A stretch of DNA of 59,550 bases, from positions 4,574-64,123 of the forward strand of contig CADCTC010000035.1 in the NCBI GenBank assembly GCA_902805635.1, written 5' to 3'. Numbering within the stretch: position 1 is the stretch's first letter; every line of letters begins with the position of its first letter. Shown here one piece after another: positions 3,411-52,367 of this stretch. The stretch comes from an uncultured Chloroflexota bacterium (GTDB lineage Bacteria; Chloroflexota; UBA11872; UBA12225). A model generated the notes under the pieces. The model did no database searches and was not told where the DNA came from. It worked only from the letters and a program-made list of their open reading frames with translations. Position numbers and translations under genes: made by a program.

Positions 3411-4766
3411 TCAGCCCGCGGCCCGGGCAAGGTCCCGCACCGCTAAGTAGGCTGGCCGCGGCGTGCGGTCGGGGTTGAGCAGCGCGAACCAGTAGGCGCC
3501 GGAGGTGGGGGGATTCCACGGTACGGTGCTGAAGTCCAGGTTGAACAGCACCATCCCCTCCAGCCACGTCCAGTGCCGGCGGGCGTACTCGACCGCGGCC
3601 CGGAGGTAGTCCGCCTGCTGTTGGGGACTCACCTTCATCCAGTCGTAGGGGCCCAGCGCCAGGTTGGTGGCGTGCAGGTAGCCGAACTCCGTGATCCACG
3701 CCGGCGTCTCGGCATCGCCACGCTCCACCATTACCCGGCGGTAGAGCTCCACCCTGCGGAAGCACAGGCCGCAGCCCGCCGGGTCCTGGTCGGGAGGACG
3801 CGGCCCGCCGTAGGCGTGCATCGCCAGCGCATCGAACGTGCCTTTGGCCCCCGCGGCGTACAGGCTCCGCAGGAAGTCCACGTCCTCCATCGTGCCGGCC
3901 TGGCCTCCGGTATACGGCGAGAGCCCCGCGGCGAGGACCACCGCCGCTGGGTCGGCTCGCTTAACGCCCCGGTGCGCCGCAGCCAGCAGTCGCGCGTAGG
4001 CCGCGGGATCGGGAGGACCGCCCCACTCGAACGACAAGTTCGGCTCGTTCAGCACCTCGTACGCAGCCGCCACGCCACGCGCGCGTGACGCCACCCCCTC
4101 GGCGAAGCGCTCCATCAGGCTCGGGTCCAGCCGGCTCAACGACTGGGTCCAGCCCTGTGGCCGGCCGAGCCGTACCACTAGCCGCACGTTGTGGGCCCGC
4201 GCCGCTCGGAGGAAGTTGTCCACGTCATTCGCCTGGCCGGCGTCCCAGGCAAATCGCCCTCCCTCGTGCAGCACGTTGGCCCAGTCCACCACCACGTAGG
4301 CGTGGGTGAGTCCCGCCTGCCGGGCCAGTGCGAAGGACCGATCTGGAGCATCCGATGCGTCCGCCACGGTTACGCCAAGGGTGAACGGCCGCCGCTGGGC
4401 GCCCGGCGACGGCGTCGCGGCGATCGTGGCCTGCGCCATGACCGGCGACGGCGCCGCGGCGACGGTGGCCTGCGCCGTGACCGCCGCAGGCGTCGCGGCG
4501 ATCGTGGCCTGGGCCGTAGCCGCCACTGCCGGGGCGGTGGCGGCGGGGCTCTGCGCAGCCGGCTGCGCAGAGCCTGCGGTGGGCGACGGCACCGGGGTCC
4601 TGGTTGGCGGCTCTGCGTCCGCCCGGTGTGCTGCCAGCGTCGAGGCCGCCGCGCGTGGCTGTGCGGGCGGCGCGCCGCCCGCACAGCCGGCGACGAGCAC
4701 AGCCACCACCGACAGGAGGCCCGCGACTAACTGTGCCGCCGTGATCGGCTTTGGACCGGTGCGCAT
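3411..4766 (-). CDS. Glycoside hydrolase-like lipoprotein (clan GH-A, PslG/GH39-like)
   Basis: 451 aa from the start chosen at ATG 4766. The open frame extends to 4937, but only this start puts a signal peptide and lipobox (LVAGC, Cys28) at the N-terminus. A long Ala/Thr/Pro-rich linker (about residues 40-130) includes three 13-residue repeats. A TIM-barrel catalytic domain follows. Glu241 in VLNEPN would be the acid/base and Glu360 in ITEFGY the nucleophile, as in clan GH-A enzymes acting on polysaccharides outside the cell. The exact family and substrate are not determined. The gene diverges from the Ser/Thr kinase gene. Confidence 0.82.
   Translation of the reverse strand: MRTGPKPITAAQLVAGLLSVVAVLVAGCAGGAPPAQPRAAASTLAAHRADAEPPTRTPVPSPTAGSAQPAAQSPAATAPAVAATAQATIAATPAAVTAQATVAAAPSPVMAQATIAATPSPGAQRRPFTLGVTVADASDAPDRSFALARQAGLTHAYVVVDWANVLHEGGRFAWDAGQANDVDNFLRAARAHNVRLVVRLGRPQGWTQSLSRLDPSLMERFAEGVASRARGVAAAYEVLNEPNLSFEWGGPPDPAAYARLLAAAHRGVKRADPAAVVLAAGLSPYTGGQAGTMEDVDFLRSLYAAGAKGTFDALAMHAYGGPRPPDQDPAGCGLCFRRVELYRRVMVERGDAETPAWITEFGYLHATNLALGPYDWMKVSPQQQADYLRAAVEYARRHWTWLEGMVLFNLDFSTVPWNPPTSGAYWFALLNPDRTPRPAYLAVRDLARAAG
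4411..4527. repeat. Three tandem 39-bp repeats in the lipoprotein linker
   Basis: Units starting at 4411, 4450 and 4489 each read approximately ggcgtcgcggcgatcgtggc followed by ctgcgcc. They encode 13-residue Ala/Thr-rich units (AQATIAATP-like) on the minus strand. They make up part of the flexible linker between the lipid anchor and the glycosidase domain, and the copy number may vary between strains. Confidence 0.8.
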
Positions 4767-4884
4767 CGGTGACCGCGGAAGTTCATCTGGCCGGGAGGCC
4801 GAGTAGCGTTCCTGAGGCAAGAAGCGCACCAGTGCTCGGAGCGCCCGGCCGGACTCACGGGGACCTCCCGGGGCCGCGCGGCGG

Positions 4885-6735
4885 ATGGAGGGCGTAGACT
4901 TTCCACCAAACATGATCGGGCGAACACCCGCCGCCATTCCGGACGGCCTTGACGGCGGCTCCGGCCGCCACCTTCTTGGGGGCCTCGGAGGGAGCGGATG
5001 GAGCGAAGGGAGCGAAGCCAGCGCGGTGCTGGGCGGGCGCTATGAGCTCGGTGGGCTCATCGCCGAGGGCGGCATGGCCCGGGTGTTCCGAGGCACCGAC
5101 CGGCGGCTCGGCCGCCCGGTGGCGATCAAGCTCCTGCGCCCGCAGCACGCCGCGTCGGCCGAGTGGCGAGCCCGCTTCCATGAGGAAGCGCGGGCGGCTG
5201 CCTCGCTGGCGCACCCGCACCTCGTGCAGGTATTTGACGCTGGCGAGGACGGCCTGGACGGCGGGCACGGAGAGGAAGCCCTCCGGCCGTACATCGTGAT
5301 GGAGCTTCTGCCCGGGCGCACCTTGAAGGATCTGGTCGTCGGCGCCGGCGGGCCGCTCCCGCCGCGCGATGCCGCGGCGCTGGCCCGACAGATCGCGCTC
5401 GGTATGGCCGCCGCGCATCGGCGGGGGTTAGTACACCGGGACTTGAAGCCACAGAACGTCCTCATAACAGAGGACGGCAGCGCCAAGGTGGGCGACTTTG
5501 GGCTGGCGCGCGCCTCCGGCGGCGCGCAGCTGACCCAGCCAGGCACCGTCTGGGGGACAGTGCAGTACCTCTCGCCGGAGCAGGCGGAGGGCCGGCCCGC
5601 GGACGCGCGCAGCGACATCTACGCGCTGGGCGGGATCCTCTTCGAGCTGCTCACCGGGTCGCCGCCGTACCAGGCCGATACCCCCGCGGCGATCCTGCTC
5701 AAGCACATCGCCGGCCCGGTGCCGCGCGCCCGGGACAAGCACCCGTCACTGCCCGAGGCCGTCGACGCCGTGCTAGGGCGGGCGCTGGCCAAGTCGCCCG
5801 ACGAGCGCTTTCAGTCCATGGACGAGCTGGCCGAAGCGCTCGCCTCCTTGGCCTCCCAGGCGGACGCCATTACACACCCAACCGCTTGGCCAGTGCCGGC
5901 GCCCGCCGTCGCTGGCGCCGTCACGGGCGCCGGCACTGGCCACCCCGGCTCCCGCTCCCGGCCCGACGATGTCACGGTCACCCTGCGGGAGCTCCAGGAG
6001 GCGGACCATGTCAAGACACCCGCTCCGGCGGTGCCAGCCGGCGGCCCCCGCCAGCCCAAGCCACACCGCGCTCGAGCACCGCTGGTGCGCGCTGCCGGTC
6101 TGGCGCTCTTCGCCGCGGTGGCCATAGTTGGGACCGGGGGCGCCGTGCAGGCCCTGCGCGCCGGCCTATGGGCGCCCCGGGCCCCTATCGGCGCCGTCGT
6201 GTCGAGTCCTTCTACGCAGTCTCCCCAAGCACAGGCGTCCCCAGTCGCCGGCGCGGCGGCAGTGGCCAGCCCGTCGGCATCACCTCTGGCGCCTTCCGCC
6301 GCGGTCACGCCCGTGCCACGTCCGTTGGGGGCCTACGTGCGACTGGCGGGGTGGTCGGTGACGGTGGCGCGGTACGAATGGCACACCTCCTGTCCACGGG
6401 GCGTGGGCCGCCTGGCCCCAGGAGCCAAGTTCGCGGCCGTCCGAATTGCCGGCCGCAACGACCTGCCGACCGCCGCTCCCGTCCCGGCGCTCGAATGGAC
6501 CCTGGCGGGCCACCCGGCGAGCGCCGACGGCACGGGCGAGCCGCTGCCGTGCCAACCGGAGGGCCGGGCGCCGGCCGCCGCCTGCGCGCCCGGAGTACCG
6601 CTCGCGGCCAGAGCGCGGTGCGATGGCTTGCTCGTCTTCGAGGTACCCGCCTCTGTGGAGGTGCGCGGCGCGCTTCTGCTGGCCCGTGCCGCCGGAGCCG
6701 CCGCGCCCGAAGTGGCGGCGTGGCGCCTCACCTGA
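4885..6735 (+). CDS. Membrane Ser/Thr protein kinase with C-terminal extracytoplasmic domain
   Basis: Up to 616 aa from ATG 4885. An in-frame GTG at 5026, just before LGGRYEL, has a purine-rich upstream region and is an alternative start that removes a low-complexity leader. The Hanks-type kinase domain spans residues 50-330, with Lys82 (VAIKLL), Asp186 in HRDLKPQN, Asp204 in DFG and the SPEQ motif of bacterial kinases. A Pro/Ala linker leads to one transmembrane helix (about 402-425). A Pro/Ser linker then leads to a C-terminal domain of about 135 residues that looks like the DUF4352/immunoglobulin-like domain. No PASTA repeats are present. It probably senses an external cue and phosphorylates cytoplasmic targets. 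Targets are unknown. Confidence 0.92.
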   Translation: MEGVDFPPNMIGRTPAAIPDGLDGGSGRHLLGGLGGSGWSEGSEASAVLGGRYELGGLIAEGGMARVFRGTDRRLGRPVAIKLLRPQHAASAEWRARFHEEARAAASLAHPHLVQVFDAGEDGLDGGHGEEALRPYIVMELLPGRTLKDLVVGAGGPLPPRDAAALARQIALGMAAAHRRGLVHRDLKPQNVLITEDGSAKVGDFGLARASGGAQLTQPGTVWGTVQYLSPEQAEGRPADARSDIYALGGILFELLTGSPPYQADTPAAILLKHIAGPVPRARDKHPSLPEAVDAVLGRALAKSPDERFQSMDELAEALASLASQADAITHPTAWPVPAPAVAGAVTGAGTGHPGSRSRPDDVTVTLRELQEADHVKTPAPAVPAGGPRQPKPHRARAPLVRAAGLALFAAVAIVGTGGAVQALRAGLWAPRAPIGAVVSSPSTQSPQAQASPVAGAAAVASPSASPLAPSAAVTPVPRPLGAYVRLAGWSVTVARYEWHTSCPRGVGRLAPGAKFAAVRIAGRNDLPTAAPVPALEWTLAGHPASADGTGEPLPCQPEGRAPAAACAPGVPLAARARCDGLLVFEVPASVEVRGALLLARAAGAAAPEVAAWRLT

Positions 6736-6788
6736 CGCGCCACGCCGCCCCACGACACGCGCTGATCGGGCCTACCGCCCCTTACGCG

Positions 6789-7298
6789 TCAAACGGTCAG
6801 TAAGCGCCGGAAGAAGGAGCGGTAGCGCTGCAGCGTCAGGCGGAGGTCCTCGGTGGAGACATCACCGCCGCGGCCCCACTGCTGCTCCAGTGTTGCCCGC
6901 TCCTGGGCAAACACCTCCGCCAGCCGGCGCACTGTCTCCGCCACCAGCTGGTCGGCCTGCTCTACCGCGCTGCGCGGGTCGTCCACGAAGCCCGCCTGGA
7001 CGCTCTCCCACTGCTGTCGGAAGGACGCCGCCTTGTCTTCCGCGAACAAGGCGGGCTCAGACGCACCGGTAGAAGGCTCCGGCCCCGCACGACCGGCTGC
7101 CGGCCCAGACCCCTGCATCGAGCGCAGCAGTCCCGCGGTGCCTCCGACCCCCGAGCCCCCGCCCCCGGTGGCTCCGGCGCCGGTGCCCCTGGAGCCGTCC
7201 GCTTCGCTGCGTCGCGTGTCTTGCTCCATCTCAGGCCGCCCTGGTGCTGGAGCCGCGGCCTGCGGCCCCGTCTCCTTCGCCTCGCTCGGCGCGCCCAC
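6789..7298 (-). CDS. Hypothetical protein related to the C-terminus of its upstream neighbour
   Basis: 169 aa with no recognised enzymatic motif. Residues 1-85 are Gly/Ala/Pro-rich and disordered. Residues 88-169 are helical and carry FVDDPRSAVEQADQL and TEDLRLTLQRYRSFFRRLL. The same blocks (FVDDPPAAIADANEL and TEDLRQAMVHYRALFQELL) occur in the protein encoded immediately upstream, so the two appear to be diverged paralogues. The gene overlaps that neighbour by 68 bases and is probably translated from the same transcript. The start is uncertain because the disordered leader has no clear ribosome binding site. Confidence 0.65.
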   Translation of the reverse strand: MGAPSEAKETGPQAAAPAPGRPEMEQDTRRSEADGSRGTGAGATGGGGSGVGGTAGLLRSMQGSGPAAGRAGPEPSTGASEPALFAEDKAASFRQQWESVQAGFVDDPRSAVEQADQLVAETVRRLAEVFAQERATLEQQWGRGGDVSTEDLRLTLQRYRSFFRRLLTV

Positions 7299-7851
7299 CG
7301 CGCTCCGGAGCTTCGTCGCCTTCGAGCAGCTCCTGGAACAGCGCGCGGTAGTGCACCATGGCCTGGCGGAGGTCCTCCGTGCCCGCCTGTCTCCGTTCGC
7401 TGCGGCCGGCGATCTCCCGGGCGGCGCGGTAGTGCTGCACCACCTCGGGATGATGGACCGAGATGTCTTCCGCCCGCTGGTCGAAGTGCGCCATCGGGTA
7501 GCCCCGAGCCTGCATCACGCCCTTGATGAGCTCGTTGGCATCGGCGATCGCCGCGGGCGGGTCGTCCACGAAGCGCGCCTGCGCCTCGCGCCAGGCGGCG
7601 GCGTAGCGCAGCCGGTCCGCTGGCGGCAGCGCACGCAGCTCCAGCCCTGCCACCCGCTTCTGCCGCTCGCGCAGCCGCTCCTCTGCCACCTTCTCGTCCC
7701 CGTACTCGCGCACCGTCCGCTCGTACTCAGGGCCAAACCGCTCGCGCAGCTGTTCCGACCGCTGCCGGCGCATGTACGCCCATGCGGCGAAGCCCGCCAG
7801 CGCGAGCACCACCAGCACCACGAGCACCACGGCTACCACTGTGTTGTCCAC
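7231..7851 (-). CDS. Single-pass membrane protein of unknown function
   Basis: 206 aa from GTG 7851, chosen because aggagac (reverse complement of 7858-7864) sits at ideal spacing and the protein then opens directly with a membrane helix (residues about 4-25, VVAVVLVVLVVLALAGFAAW). A longer frame reaches 7923 but has weaker signals. The rest is charged and helical (RSEQLRERFGPEYERTVREYGD, then QARFVDDP and a YRALFQELL end). The arrangement resembles an uncharacterised membrane-anchored family that I have seen in actinobacteria and Chloroflexota, with no known role. It is followed by a smaller paralogue. Confidence 0.78.
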   Translation of the reverse strand: MDNTVVAVVLVVLVVLALAGFAAWAYMRRQRSEQLRERFGPEYERTVREYGDEKVAEERLRERQKRVAGLELRALPPADRLRYAAAWREAQARFVDDPPAAIADANELIKGVMQARGYPMAHFDQRAEDISVHHPEVVQHYRAAREIAGRSERRQAGTEDLRQAMVHYRALFQELLEGDEAPERGGRAERGEGDGAAGRGSSTRAA

Positions 7852-49854: not shown

Positions 49855-50625
49855 ATGGAGCGCAGCTACCGCTCGTCGAACGCACTCTACGCGTATGCGT
49901 TCCTGCTCGCCTTGACGGGGCTCCTACTCGGCGTCGAGGCTATCCAGCGCGTGCGAGGCGGCGCCACCGCGTTCAGCGTCGTGCTCGCGGTGTTCGCGCT
50001 GGCGTGGATCGGCTGCGCCGCCGCGCTTGGCGTGCGCTGGGGCCGGACGCGCATCTCCCTGCGCTCGGATGCGCTCGCCATCTCCGGCGACGGCCCCGAG
50101 CGCCGGCTGCCGTGGAGCGATGTGATTAGCGTTCGCGAGTATCGTGGCCCTGCGTACCAGCTATCAATACGGGGCTTGCTGCCTGGCCCGTACCTGCCGC
50201 ATGGCTTACTGCGCGGCGAGACGGTGCTTGAGATCGAGGCTCGGCCGGCCATGCTGCTGCACTTCCGCCAGGCGCTGGTGGACAGCTACGGCGCCTTCCG
50301 CCAGGACGTGCTGCGCTCCGTTTCGCGCGACGTGCCCGTGGACCTCCACGCCCGCTGGTGGCGACAGGACGACCCGGCAGACCACTTATCGCTCGGTACG
50401 GACGCGGACGCCGGCTACGACGAGCTTGACGAGGACGCCCCGCCGTCCCGGTCGCGCGGCAGCCGCAGCCCACAGCGACCGTCGCCCCCGACGCGCATCG
50501 ACCGCACCGATCGTGGCGCAGTGGACCGGCTCAGCCCGCCGCGGGATCGTACGACGCGTCCGATTCGAACGGATAGAGGGGACGCCGGCGGTGGTGGTAT
50601 TCGAAGGTCGAGAGATCGGCGGTAG
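49855..50625 (+). CDS. Membrane protein with PH-like domain
   Basis: 256 aa from ATG 49855. Two membrane helices (about 11-31 and 39-61) are followed by a bacterial PH-like beta domain (GRTRISLRSDALAISGDGPERRLPWSDVISVREYRG). The C-terminal 90 residues are a polar Arg/Pro/Ser tail (SRSRGSRSPQRPSPPTRIDRTDRG) that is probably disordered. The last 95 bases overlap the convergent M81 gene, and the tail's odd composition may reflect that shared sequence. Function unknown. Confidence 0.75.
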   Translation: MERSYRSSNALYAYAFLLALTGLLLGVEAIQRVRGGATAFSVVLAVFALAWIGCAAALGVRWGRTRISLRSDALAISGDGPERRLPWSDVISVREYRGPAYQLSIRGLLPGPYLPHGLLRGETVLEIEARPAMLLHFRQALVDSYGAFRQDVLRSVSRDVPVDLHARWWRQDDPADHLSLGTDADAGYDELDEDAPPSRSRGSRSPQRPSPPTRIDRTDRGAVDRLSPPRDRTTRPIRTDRGDAGGGGIRRSRDRR

Positions 50626-52030
50626 TGACCCCTGGCGTGTTAGCCAGGATGATCTGCGCCGCGATCGGCTCGTAGGCTGGCCGGGGCGAAACCACGCCCT
50701 TGGCGACCACCACTTGCTTCTGCTCCGGCCGGATACCCAGCGAGTACATTTGCTCGATGCTGGTGTTGCCAACGCGCCGGCTGGTCAGCACCAGCGTCAC
50801 TCCATCGTCCGCTTCCAGCACCGCCGTGATGCCTGCGTTGAAGAAGCGCTGCCCGCCGTGCGTCGGCCGGTGCTCCTCGAAGAGGCCGTCCGAGATCAGG
50901 CGCACCCGCCCGGTCACCGTCACCGGGCGTCCGTGCCGGTCGTCGGTATTGGCCCCCACCTCCAGCGATACGGTGCTGCCCACGCCCGACGCCACGCACG
51001 CCTCCACCGCATGCGGGTCGAACAGCGTCTGCAAATAGGAGCGCACGCCCAGCCGACGGGCCGTCTCCAGCAGGATGGTGGAATCGGCTGGGCTGCCGCC
51101 GCCGATATTGTCCCCCACGTCCATCACCACGACAGGTCCGCCCGGCGCGGCCATCGCCTGCCGCAGCGCCTCCTCCGACGAGGGCGTGTCTCCGACGAAA
51201 GCGGTGCGGCGCTCCCACGCCCGCTGCGCCATCCAGCGTGCCGCCTCGCGCGCTGCCGCCGGGTCGCCATCGTGCACCGCCAAGAAAGACATGCCCATCT
51301 CTGCCACGTCGGCATAGGGGTAACCTTCTATGGCGCTGGCGGTCAGCATCCCCGTCCGTGCCATGGCGGCGGCGCAGTCGTCCATCACGTCCTTCATCGG
51401 CGGTTCGCCCGTGAACTGCTTGACGATGTTGATGACCAGCGGTGGCGTCTCGAGCGCCTGCACCGGCCGGATCTCACCGCGCACCGTCCGCACGATCAGC
51501 TCGGCGCACTCGCGCGCGCGCGGGCGCGGATCGACGTGCGGGTTGGTGCGGAACACCACCATCACCGTCGTGGCGTCCACCATCTGATGGCTCACGTTGG
51601 CGTGCATGTCCAGCGACATGCCAATGGGTACGCCGTCACCCACAACCTCACGCGCGCGCCGCGCGAAGTCGCCGTCCGCGTCAGGGGTCCCGTCGGCGAC
51701 CGCTGCGCCGTGCTGCGCCAGCAGCACCCCGTCCCACGGTCCCTTGCTATCGAGCAGCTGTAGAAGCTCCGCCGTCAGCCGCTGGTAGGCGTCTCCCGTG
51801 ATCGTGCCGCTGGGCTCCGTGGACGCGTACATCAGCGGGACCACCTCCACGTCGGGCTCCAGCTCCCGCCCCGCCTCCAGGTAGCCCGCCACAGTGGTAT
51901 GCGCCGTCGCGTGCCGGCGCACGATCTCCTCCCCCCGTAGGATGCCGCTCGCCGCCCACTGGTCGTACCCGGTGGGCGGCGTGGCGAACGTATTCGTCTC
52001 GTGCGAGAACCCCAACAGCGCCAGTCTCAT
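50531..52030 (-). CDS. M81 family metallopeptidase-like protein (MlrC type)
   Basis: 499 aa from ATG 52030. The N-terminal half carries the MlrC/DUF1485 pattern: LALLGFSHETNTFA, DGVLLAQHGAAVADGTPDADGDF and GMSLDMHANVS, whose Asp and His would bind zinc. The C-terminal half has VVVMDVGDNIGGGSPADSTILL and the closing NTPGVTTADLSTFEYHHRRRPLYPFE. The name comes from microcystin-degrading MlrC, but most homologues are in other bacteria and have unknown substrates. No mlrA or mlrB is nearby. Confidence 0.92.
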   Translation of the reverse strand: MRLALLGFSHETNTFATPPTGYDQWAASGILRGEEIVRRHATAHTTVAGYLEAGRELEPDVEVVPLMYASTEPSGTITGDAYQRLTAELLQLLDSKGPWDGVLLAQHGAAVADGTPDADGDFARRAREVVGDGVPIGMSLDMHANVSHQMVDATTVMVVFRTNPHVDPRPRARECAELIVRTVRGEIRPVQALETPPLVINIVKQFTGEPPMKDVMDDCAAAMARTGMLTASAIEGYPYADVAEMGMSFLAVHDGDPAAAREAARWMAQRAWERRTAFVGDTPSSEEALRQAMAAPGGPVVVMDVGDNIGGGSPADSTILLETARRLGVRSYLQTLFDPHAVEACVASGVGSTVSLEVGANTDDRHGRPVTVTGRVRLISDGLFEEHRPTHGGQRFFNAGITAVLEADDGVTLVLTSRRVGNTSIEQMYSLGIRPEQKQVVVAKGVVSPRPAYEPIAAQIILANTPGVTTADLSTFEYHHRRRPLYPFESDASYDPAAG

Positions 52031-52118: not shown

Positions 52119-52367
52119 TTAGCCCCGCAGCTGGCGCAGCACCTCTCCCTCTTCGGGGAAGCGTCCCAGCTGTCGTTTGGAGAAGATCAGCTCGTTTGCG
52201 CTCCGGACCTCGAAGACGCCGCCGCTGCTCGGGATGAGCTCGACGTCCTGCACGCGCCCCGGCAGCGCGCGCTTCAGCTCTGCCGCCAAACTGGCGGCTC
52301 TCTTGTCATAGCCTCATGACGTGCAGTATTCGATGCTGACGTTGAGGGGTTCCTGTGTCTGGGCCAT
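52119..52367 (-). CDS. Selenoprotein of the SelW/SelT/SelH (Rdx) family, in-frame UGA = Sec18
   Basis: 82 aa from ATG 52367 with aaggagga (complement of 52373-52380) as a near-ideal ribosome binding site. Codon 18 (52316-52314) is TGA. Read as selenocysteine, the protein opens with EYCTSUGYDKRA, the CxxU redox motif (Cys15, Sec18) of the Rdx family. It then continues with the family's VELIPSSGGVFEV and ELIFSKRQLGRFPE, up to TAA at 52119-52121. A hairpin 16 bases 3' of the UGA fits a bacterial SECIS. The thioredoxin-like fold suggests a cytoplasmic thiol-redox role. Read without recoding it would be a 17-residue stub. Confidence 0.88.
52282..52298 (-). promoter_or_regulatory. Putative bacterial SECIS element
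   Basis: On the minus strand gccgcca (52298-52292) pairs perfectly with tggcggc (52288-52282) around a gtt loop. The stem begins 16 bases after the UGA, and the loop G is 23 bases after it. This fits the known layout of bacterial SECIS hairpins, which place a short apical loop with an early G about 16-37 bases 3' of the UGA inside the coding region. Confidence 0.75.

Follow-up and report, generated by a model that had tools for sequence, protein, structure and literature searches.

The minus-strand locus at 52119..52367 of the window (the whole stretch of 59,550 nucleotides that was analysed, from an uncultured Chloroflexota bacterium) is very probably a gene of a SelW-like (Rdx) selenoprotein, whose UGA codon is decoded as selenocysteine (Sec) through a hairpin bound by SelB. 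This reading of the UGA is supported by the family profiles, the conservation of the codon, purifying selection on the codons that follow it, the hairpin seen in homologues, and the presence of selA, selB and two selD genes in the genome.

The selW frame and its protein family

Re-reading of the minus strand recovered the frame as described in the initial annotation, with the same coordinates and counts. The frame, called selW here, starts with ATG at 52367-52365, is preceded by the Shine-Dalgarno sequence AAGGAGG (52380-52374), comprises 82 codons and ends with TAA at 52121-52119. Its 18th codon is TGA (52314..52316), and Cys15 lies three residues ahead of it, giving C15-T-S-U18, an instance of the CxxU motif. 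After the TGA the frame runs for 64 further codons to the stop, and both landmark peptides named for the Rdx family were found there. As had been predicted, the gene is missed when UGA is treated as a stop: plain ORF calling with translation table 11 does not yield the selW frame among ORFs of at least 60 amino acids.

The assignment to the SelW/Rdx family, for which a comparison with TIGR02174 had been proposed, was confirmed by profile searches, with U written as C in the query. The Pfam profile Rdx (PF10262) matches residues 9-81, spanning the TGA, with 83.2 bits (cut-off 22.6, E 1.5e-23), which rules out a chance open frame. Two NCBIfam models of the SelT/SelW/SelH group also match through the UGA above their cut-offs, TIGR02174 with 67.3 bits (cut-off 34.2) and NF041051 (SelTWH_Campy, SelT/SelW/SelH family (seleno)protein) with 89.6 bits, the latter barely clearing its cut-off of 88.

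The selW product is predicted to have the thioredoxin-like SelW fold. An AlphaFold2 model, computed from 53 aligned sequences that included homologues from the SelW/Rdx family itself, has a mean pLDDT of 75.9 and pTM of 0.57, and Foldseek aligns it with 2fa8 (TM 0.81) and with mouse SelW 2npb (TM 0.69). A sequence search of solved structures gives 2fa8 at E 1.6e-10 (about 2e-10 for the bacterial 2fa8 and 3dex) and a weak match to SelW 2npb (E 0.0026). The identity between 2fa8 and the selW product is 32% over 75 columns. The fold of the model resembles those of the solved SelW-related proteins 2fa8, 3dex, 2obk and 2p0g from bacteria and 2npb from mouse.

An M81 (MlrC/DUF1485-type) metallopeptidase gene, identified by Pfam and locus comparison, lies just downstream of selW on the same strand (50531..52030, minus). 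The order selW, then M81, on one strand was observed in seven of the eight relatives from the same taxonomic family. In the remaining one (G004) no M81 gene was seen within the 20 kb read, and selW still lies between homologues of CoxM and ORF49855. A functional link between the M81 protein and selW is possible.

Conservation of the UGA codon and of the hairpin

In a search of 151 genomes (the window's own and 150 relatives), SelW matches were found in 83. Of the 40 genomes that share at least the class with the window, 37 have a match, each with one in-frame TGA, and all eight genomes searched from the taxonomic family carry selW with one in-frame TGA at the same site. Outside the class, matches both with TGA and free of it were seen; in one of these genomes (G110) the SelW match starts at residue 19, directly past the UGA site. 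The TGA occupies the fourth position of CxxU in 30/30 whole-genome loci read (own included) and in 25 of the 32 named loci, the remaining seven being four with TGC, two in which the first motif position is TGA as well (UxxU), and one truncated before the motif.

The codons after the UGA of selW are under purifying selection. The dN/dS values of this part, calculated for the window against each of the eight family relatives, range from 0.18 to 0.38 (59-64 codons), and seven closer pairs, among the 15 of 36 pairs listed, have values of 0.09-0.19. The nearest SelW found, that of G002, is 73% identical. According to the initial annotation, close relatives with a plain stop at this position and a decayed downstream frame would indicate a pseudogene; none was seen among the eight family relatives.

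The codon data also bear on two other explanations of the in-frame TGA. It could be a sequencing error or a point mutation of TGC or TGT in an ordinary Cys-type Rdx gene, and such genes do exist, as the four TGC loci of the 32 named ones demonstrate, but UGA at the same site in all eight family relatives, each with a hairpin of six or seven of seven pairs, leaves this next to no probability, and for the taxonomic family refutes it. UGA could also encode Trp or Gly under an altered genetic code, and the selW frame would indeed be open under such codes; this deserves hardly any credence. TGA looks like an ordinary stop near selW, where it ends 6 of 11 frames, and TGG codons occur in 9 of the other 10, though the absence of in-frame TGA from these frames is no independent evidence, since they were called with table 11. 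Among 59 homologues with a CxxU or CxxC motif, 55 (own included) have TGA at this site and 4 have TGC; TGG or a glycine codon never occurs there. A general reassignment of UGA is ruled out by the TGA stops nearby together with these homologue codons.

The hairpin just 3' of the UGA reads as was claimed, with a perfect 7-bp stem and a GTT loop. It occupies 52282..52298 (minus), with the stem GCCGCCA at 52298-52292, the loop GTT at 52291-52289 (GUU with G first in the transcript) and the arm TGGCGGC at 52288-52282; the gap between TGA and the stem is 15 bases, so that the stem starts at the 16th. Bacterial SECIS elements are described in an excerpt of PMC1088965 as having G in a small apical loop. 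When four stretches were folded, the 7-bp stem formed in three of them (38, 55 and 81 bases; z = -2.62, -1.64 and -1.87, respectively), and the fourth (60 bases from the TGA) had a different minimum-energy fold with z = +0.29. No Rfam family matched the window at gathering scores. Taken alone, the hairpin of the window is weak evidence, as 7.9% of synonymous recodings of its sequence retain all seven pairs (P = 0.079).

The comparative data are stronger and support the proposed SECIS placement: the hairpin is kept across homologues beyond what synonymous codon choice would yield. When the register is fixed as in the window and the two UxxU loci and the truncated one are left out, at least six of the seven pairs form in 33 of the 55 TGA sequences (own included). 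The mean is 5.52 of 7 pairs for 52 distinct TGA sequences, compared to 4.30 (sd 0.12) upon synonymous resampling, with none of 1000 resamplings reaching the observed value. G is found within the first two loop bases in 53/55 TGA sequences and in 0/4 Cys homologues, two of which also form six of the seven pairs.

Covariation was analyzed in 48 distinct 40-base sequences with 500 shuffles, where the counts are those of sequences, not of independent events, and kinship alone can beat shuffles without any structure. The pairs covary on two of the four change measures: there are 31 cells with two-sided changes versus 10.6 in shuffled data (0/500 as high), and the covariation score is 0.335 versus 0.155 (0/500). 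The two other measures are neutral, namely the number of pairs with a two-sided change (4 versus 3.8, as high in 322/500 shuffles) and that of further pair types (12 versus 9.5, 30/500). When the partner arm is shifted, pairing falls from 78.9% to 59.5% or less; with a shift of -1 there are 32 two-sided cells, yet only 42.9% pairing. The outermost pair is not formed in 31 of the 48 sequences, so that about 6 bp of the stem are shared.

The two UxxU loci belong to a Chloroflexi bacterium (L092:3001-3213, JADFFS010000183.1) and to Verrucomicrobia (L093:3001-3213, CABXDI010000001.1), and in both of them a hairpin follows the second UGA. Judging from the motif, a diselenide is possible in these SelW/Rdx proteins. 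No SelW with two TGA codons was seen among the matches listed for 400 genomes of the window's phylum. In the excerpt of a 2026 review (PMC13188914) the motif of the SelW family is given as CxxU only, and in that of PMC2398784 UxxU is given for a Prx-like family.

Selenocysteine machinery and the fate of selC

The initial annotation had assumed that the host possesses the Sec machinery, and this holds for the protein components. The genome assembly (6.1 Mb, 327 contigs, 89.5% complete, 5.4% contaminated) contains selB (340.6 bits), selA (553.9 bits) and two selD genes (358.3 and 355.3 bits), all above the curated cut-offs. Each selD has one in-frame TGA, in S-x-x-A-G-U-A-S-K, which we take to be the active site; together with selW, this makes three UGA-bearing genes of known selenoprotein families in the genome. 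SelB is 74% identical to that of the family relative G002, its best match among the 20 relatives searched, which rules out contamination as an obvious source of selB.

One UGA-bearing selD is located directly before a gene matching SenA, selenoneine synthase (448.6 bits, cut-off 420), at G000:C55 (L032 about 4683-7403, minus), and the organism may, as judged by this profile match, also make selenoneine. The second UGA-bearing selD is on contig C127. A shorter SelB-like protein is encoded at G000:C99:5673-6848 (+), where an open frame of 427 amino acids is 37% identical to SelB residues 1-357, the C-terminal region of SelB being left uncovered; 14 of the 20 relatives searched likewise have a second SelB-like match (35-43% identity).

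The part of the machinery that was not found is an intact tRNA-Sec. The Rfam model, for which 150 of the 1065 first-look candidates were scored, gave no match over the cut-off in the genome, and at the eight places listed by this search ARAGORN calls serine, leucine, cysteine and arginine tRNAs. A pattern search for tRNA-Sec gave two matches, one of them in the control, neither being judged a tRNA. In the 61 kb surrounding the selB, selA and selD genes (both copies), neither ARAGORN nor Rfam found a tRNA-Sec, nor did ARAGORN find one in the 4.6 kb that precede the window or in 2.1 kb inside the window end. The gene was also not found at the tRNA-Cys cluster, which adjoins selC in G004.

The search with the selC of a relative retrieved a single place, G000:C253:78083-78143 (L118:1501-1561, minus), which is 89% identical and comprises the 3' half of the gene, from the anticodon loop, where the match stops, to the 3' end. 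This half is recognised neither by ARAGORN nor by Rfam. A search for the selC 3' tail with up to three mismatches returned the same place only, and no second copy of the tail was present in the 19 kb of the contig read. About 100 bases past the 3' end of the half there is a scrap with weak similarity to a tyrosine-recombinase C terminus (E 0.065 to an Int protein), and the frame that contains it had no Pfam match. The same contig carries, about 10 kb from the half, a homologue of the selC neighbour in G003, G005, G006 and G007, by our own reading probably of the Gfo/Idh type.

The remnant looks like the attachment-site copy of an integrative element residing in selC, and a half gene is what the insertion of such an element into the 3' half of a tRNA gene is expected to produce. 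As a rule, the gene is kept intact at the opposite end of the element; accordingly, an intact selC would sit beyond the end of the contig, which is 1.1 kb from the half. A full tRNA-Sec was found in six of the eight family relatives. The other two (G001 and G008) have none over the cut-off, yet their SelB match extends over residues 1-634 and they carry a UGA-containing selW; in G004 selC was found and the SelB match is only weak. Since most relatives have the full gene and the gaps are scattered among them, the missing selC is probably an assembly gap at an island insertion site. The initial annotation had named the lack of selB or tRNA-Sec in the complete genome as a sign of a pseudogene; this is not applicable here, because the assembly is 89.5% complete and holds the 3' half of selC.

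The same remnant admits a different history, in which decoding of Sec has been lost: selC was split by the integrative element, UGA now acts as a true stop, and selW has recently been left behind as a pseudogene. In its favour, the half selC beside the weakly integrase-like scrap is the only trace of the gene found in the assembly, but the assembly is incomplete and retains selA, selB and two UGA-bearing selD above cut-off, G001 and G008 show that selC can drop out of draft bins, and an intact copy would usually remain at the other end of the element. We consider this history quite unlikely. There is a similarly small chance that the element cut selC at the anticodon loop and left no working copy in a genome where selA, selB, both selD genes and selW are otherwise complete; if true, this genome would record the loss of the 21st amino acid through an island insertion shortly after the event.

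Proposed decoding and comparison with known SelW-like proteins

Under the preferred reading of selW as a functional selenoprotein gene, the ribosome would start at 52367 and reach the UGA at codon 18, where the hairpin at 52298-52282 would be bound by SelB carrying Sec-tRNA-Sec, and Sec would be inserted in place of termination. The product would be a thioredoxin-like protein of 82 residues with the redox motif Cys15-x-x-Sec18, probably involved in selenol/thiol-disulphide exchange. We infer the Sec insertion, the redox activity and its substrate, as well as an intact selC outside the assembled contigs.

Bacterial SelW-like selenoproteins with CxxU had been described by 2005 at the latest (PMC1088965), and the locus is a further ordinary case. 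The excerpts of the published surveys give 48 SelW-like genes and name the family the most abundant selenoprotein family of the Sargasso Sea set (PMC1088965), mention SelW-like selenoproteins in bacteria (PMC1794560), count 427 SelW-like sequences, the most widespread together with SelD in the GOS set (PMC2398784), and list SelW-like CxxU proteins (PMC13188914). As the bacterial family has been known for that long, the locus leaves the picture of selenium biology unchanged. It adds a gene missed by plain table-11 ORF calling, and a Sec-type SelW whose SECIS has comparative support; in this lineage, selenium probably goes into SelW and two UGA-bearing SelD proteins at the least.

The locus shares with the bacterial SelW-like (SELENOW-like) family the common profile (PF10262), the CxxU motif and, 3' of the UGA, a hairpin whose small apical loop contains G. 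No family-defining difference was observed, the downstream M81 gene being a feature of the locus in this taxonomic family.
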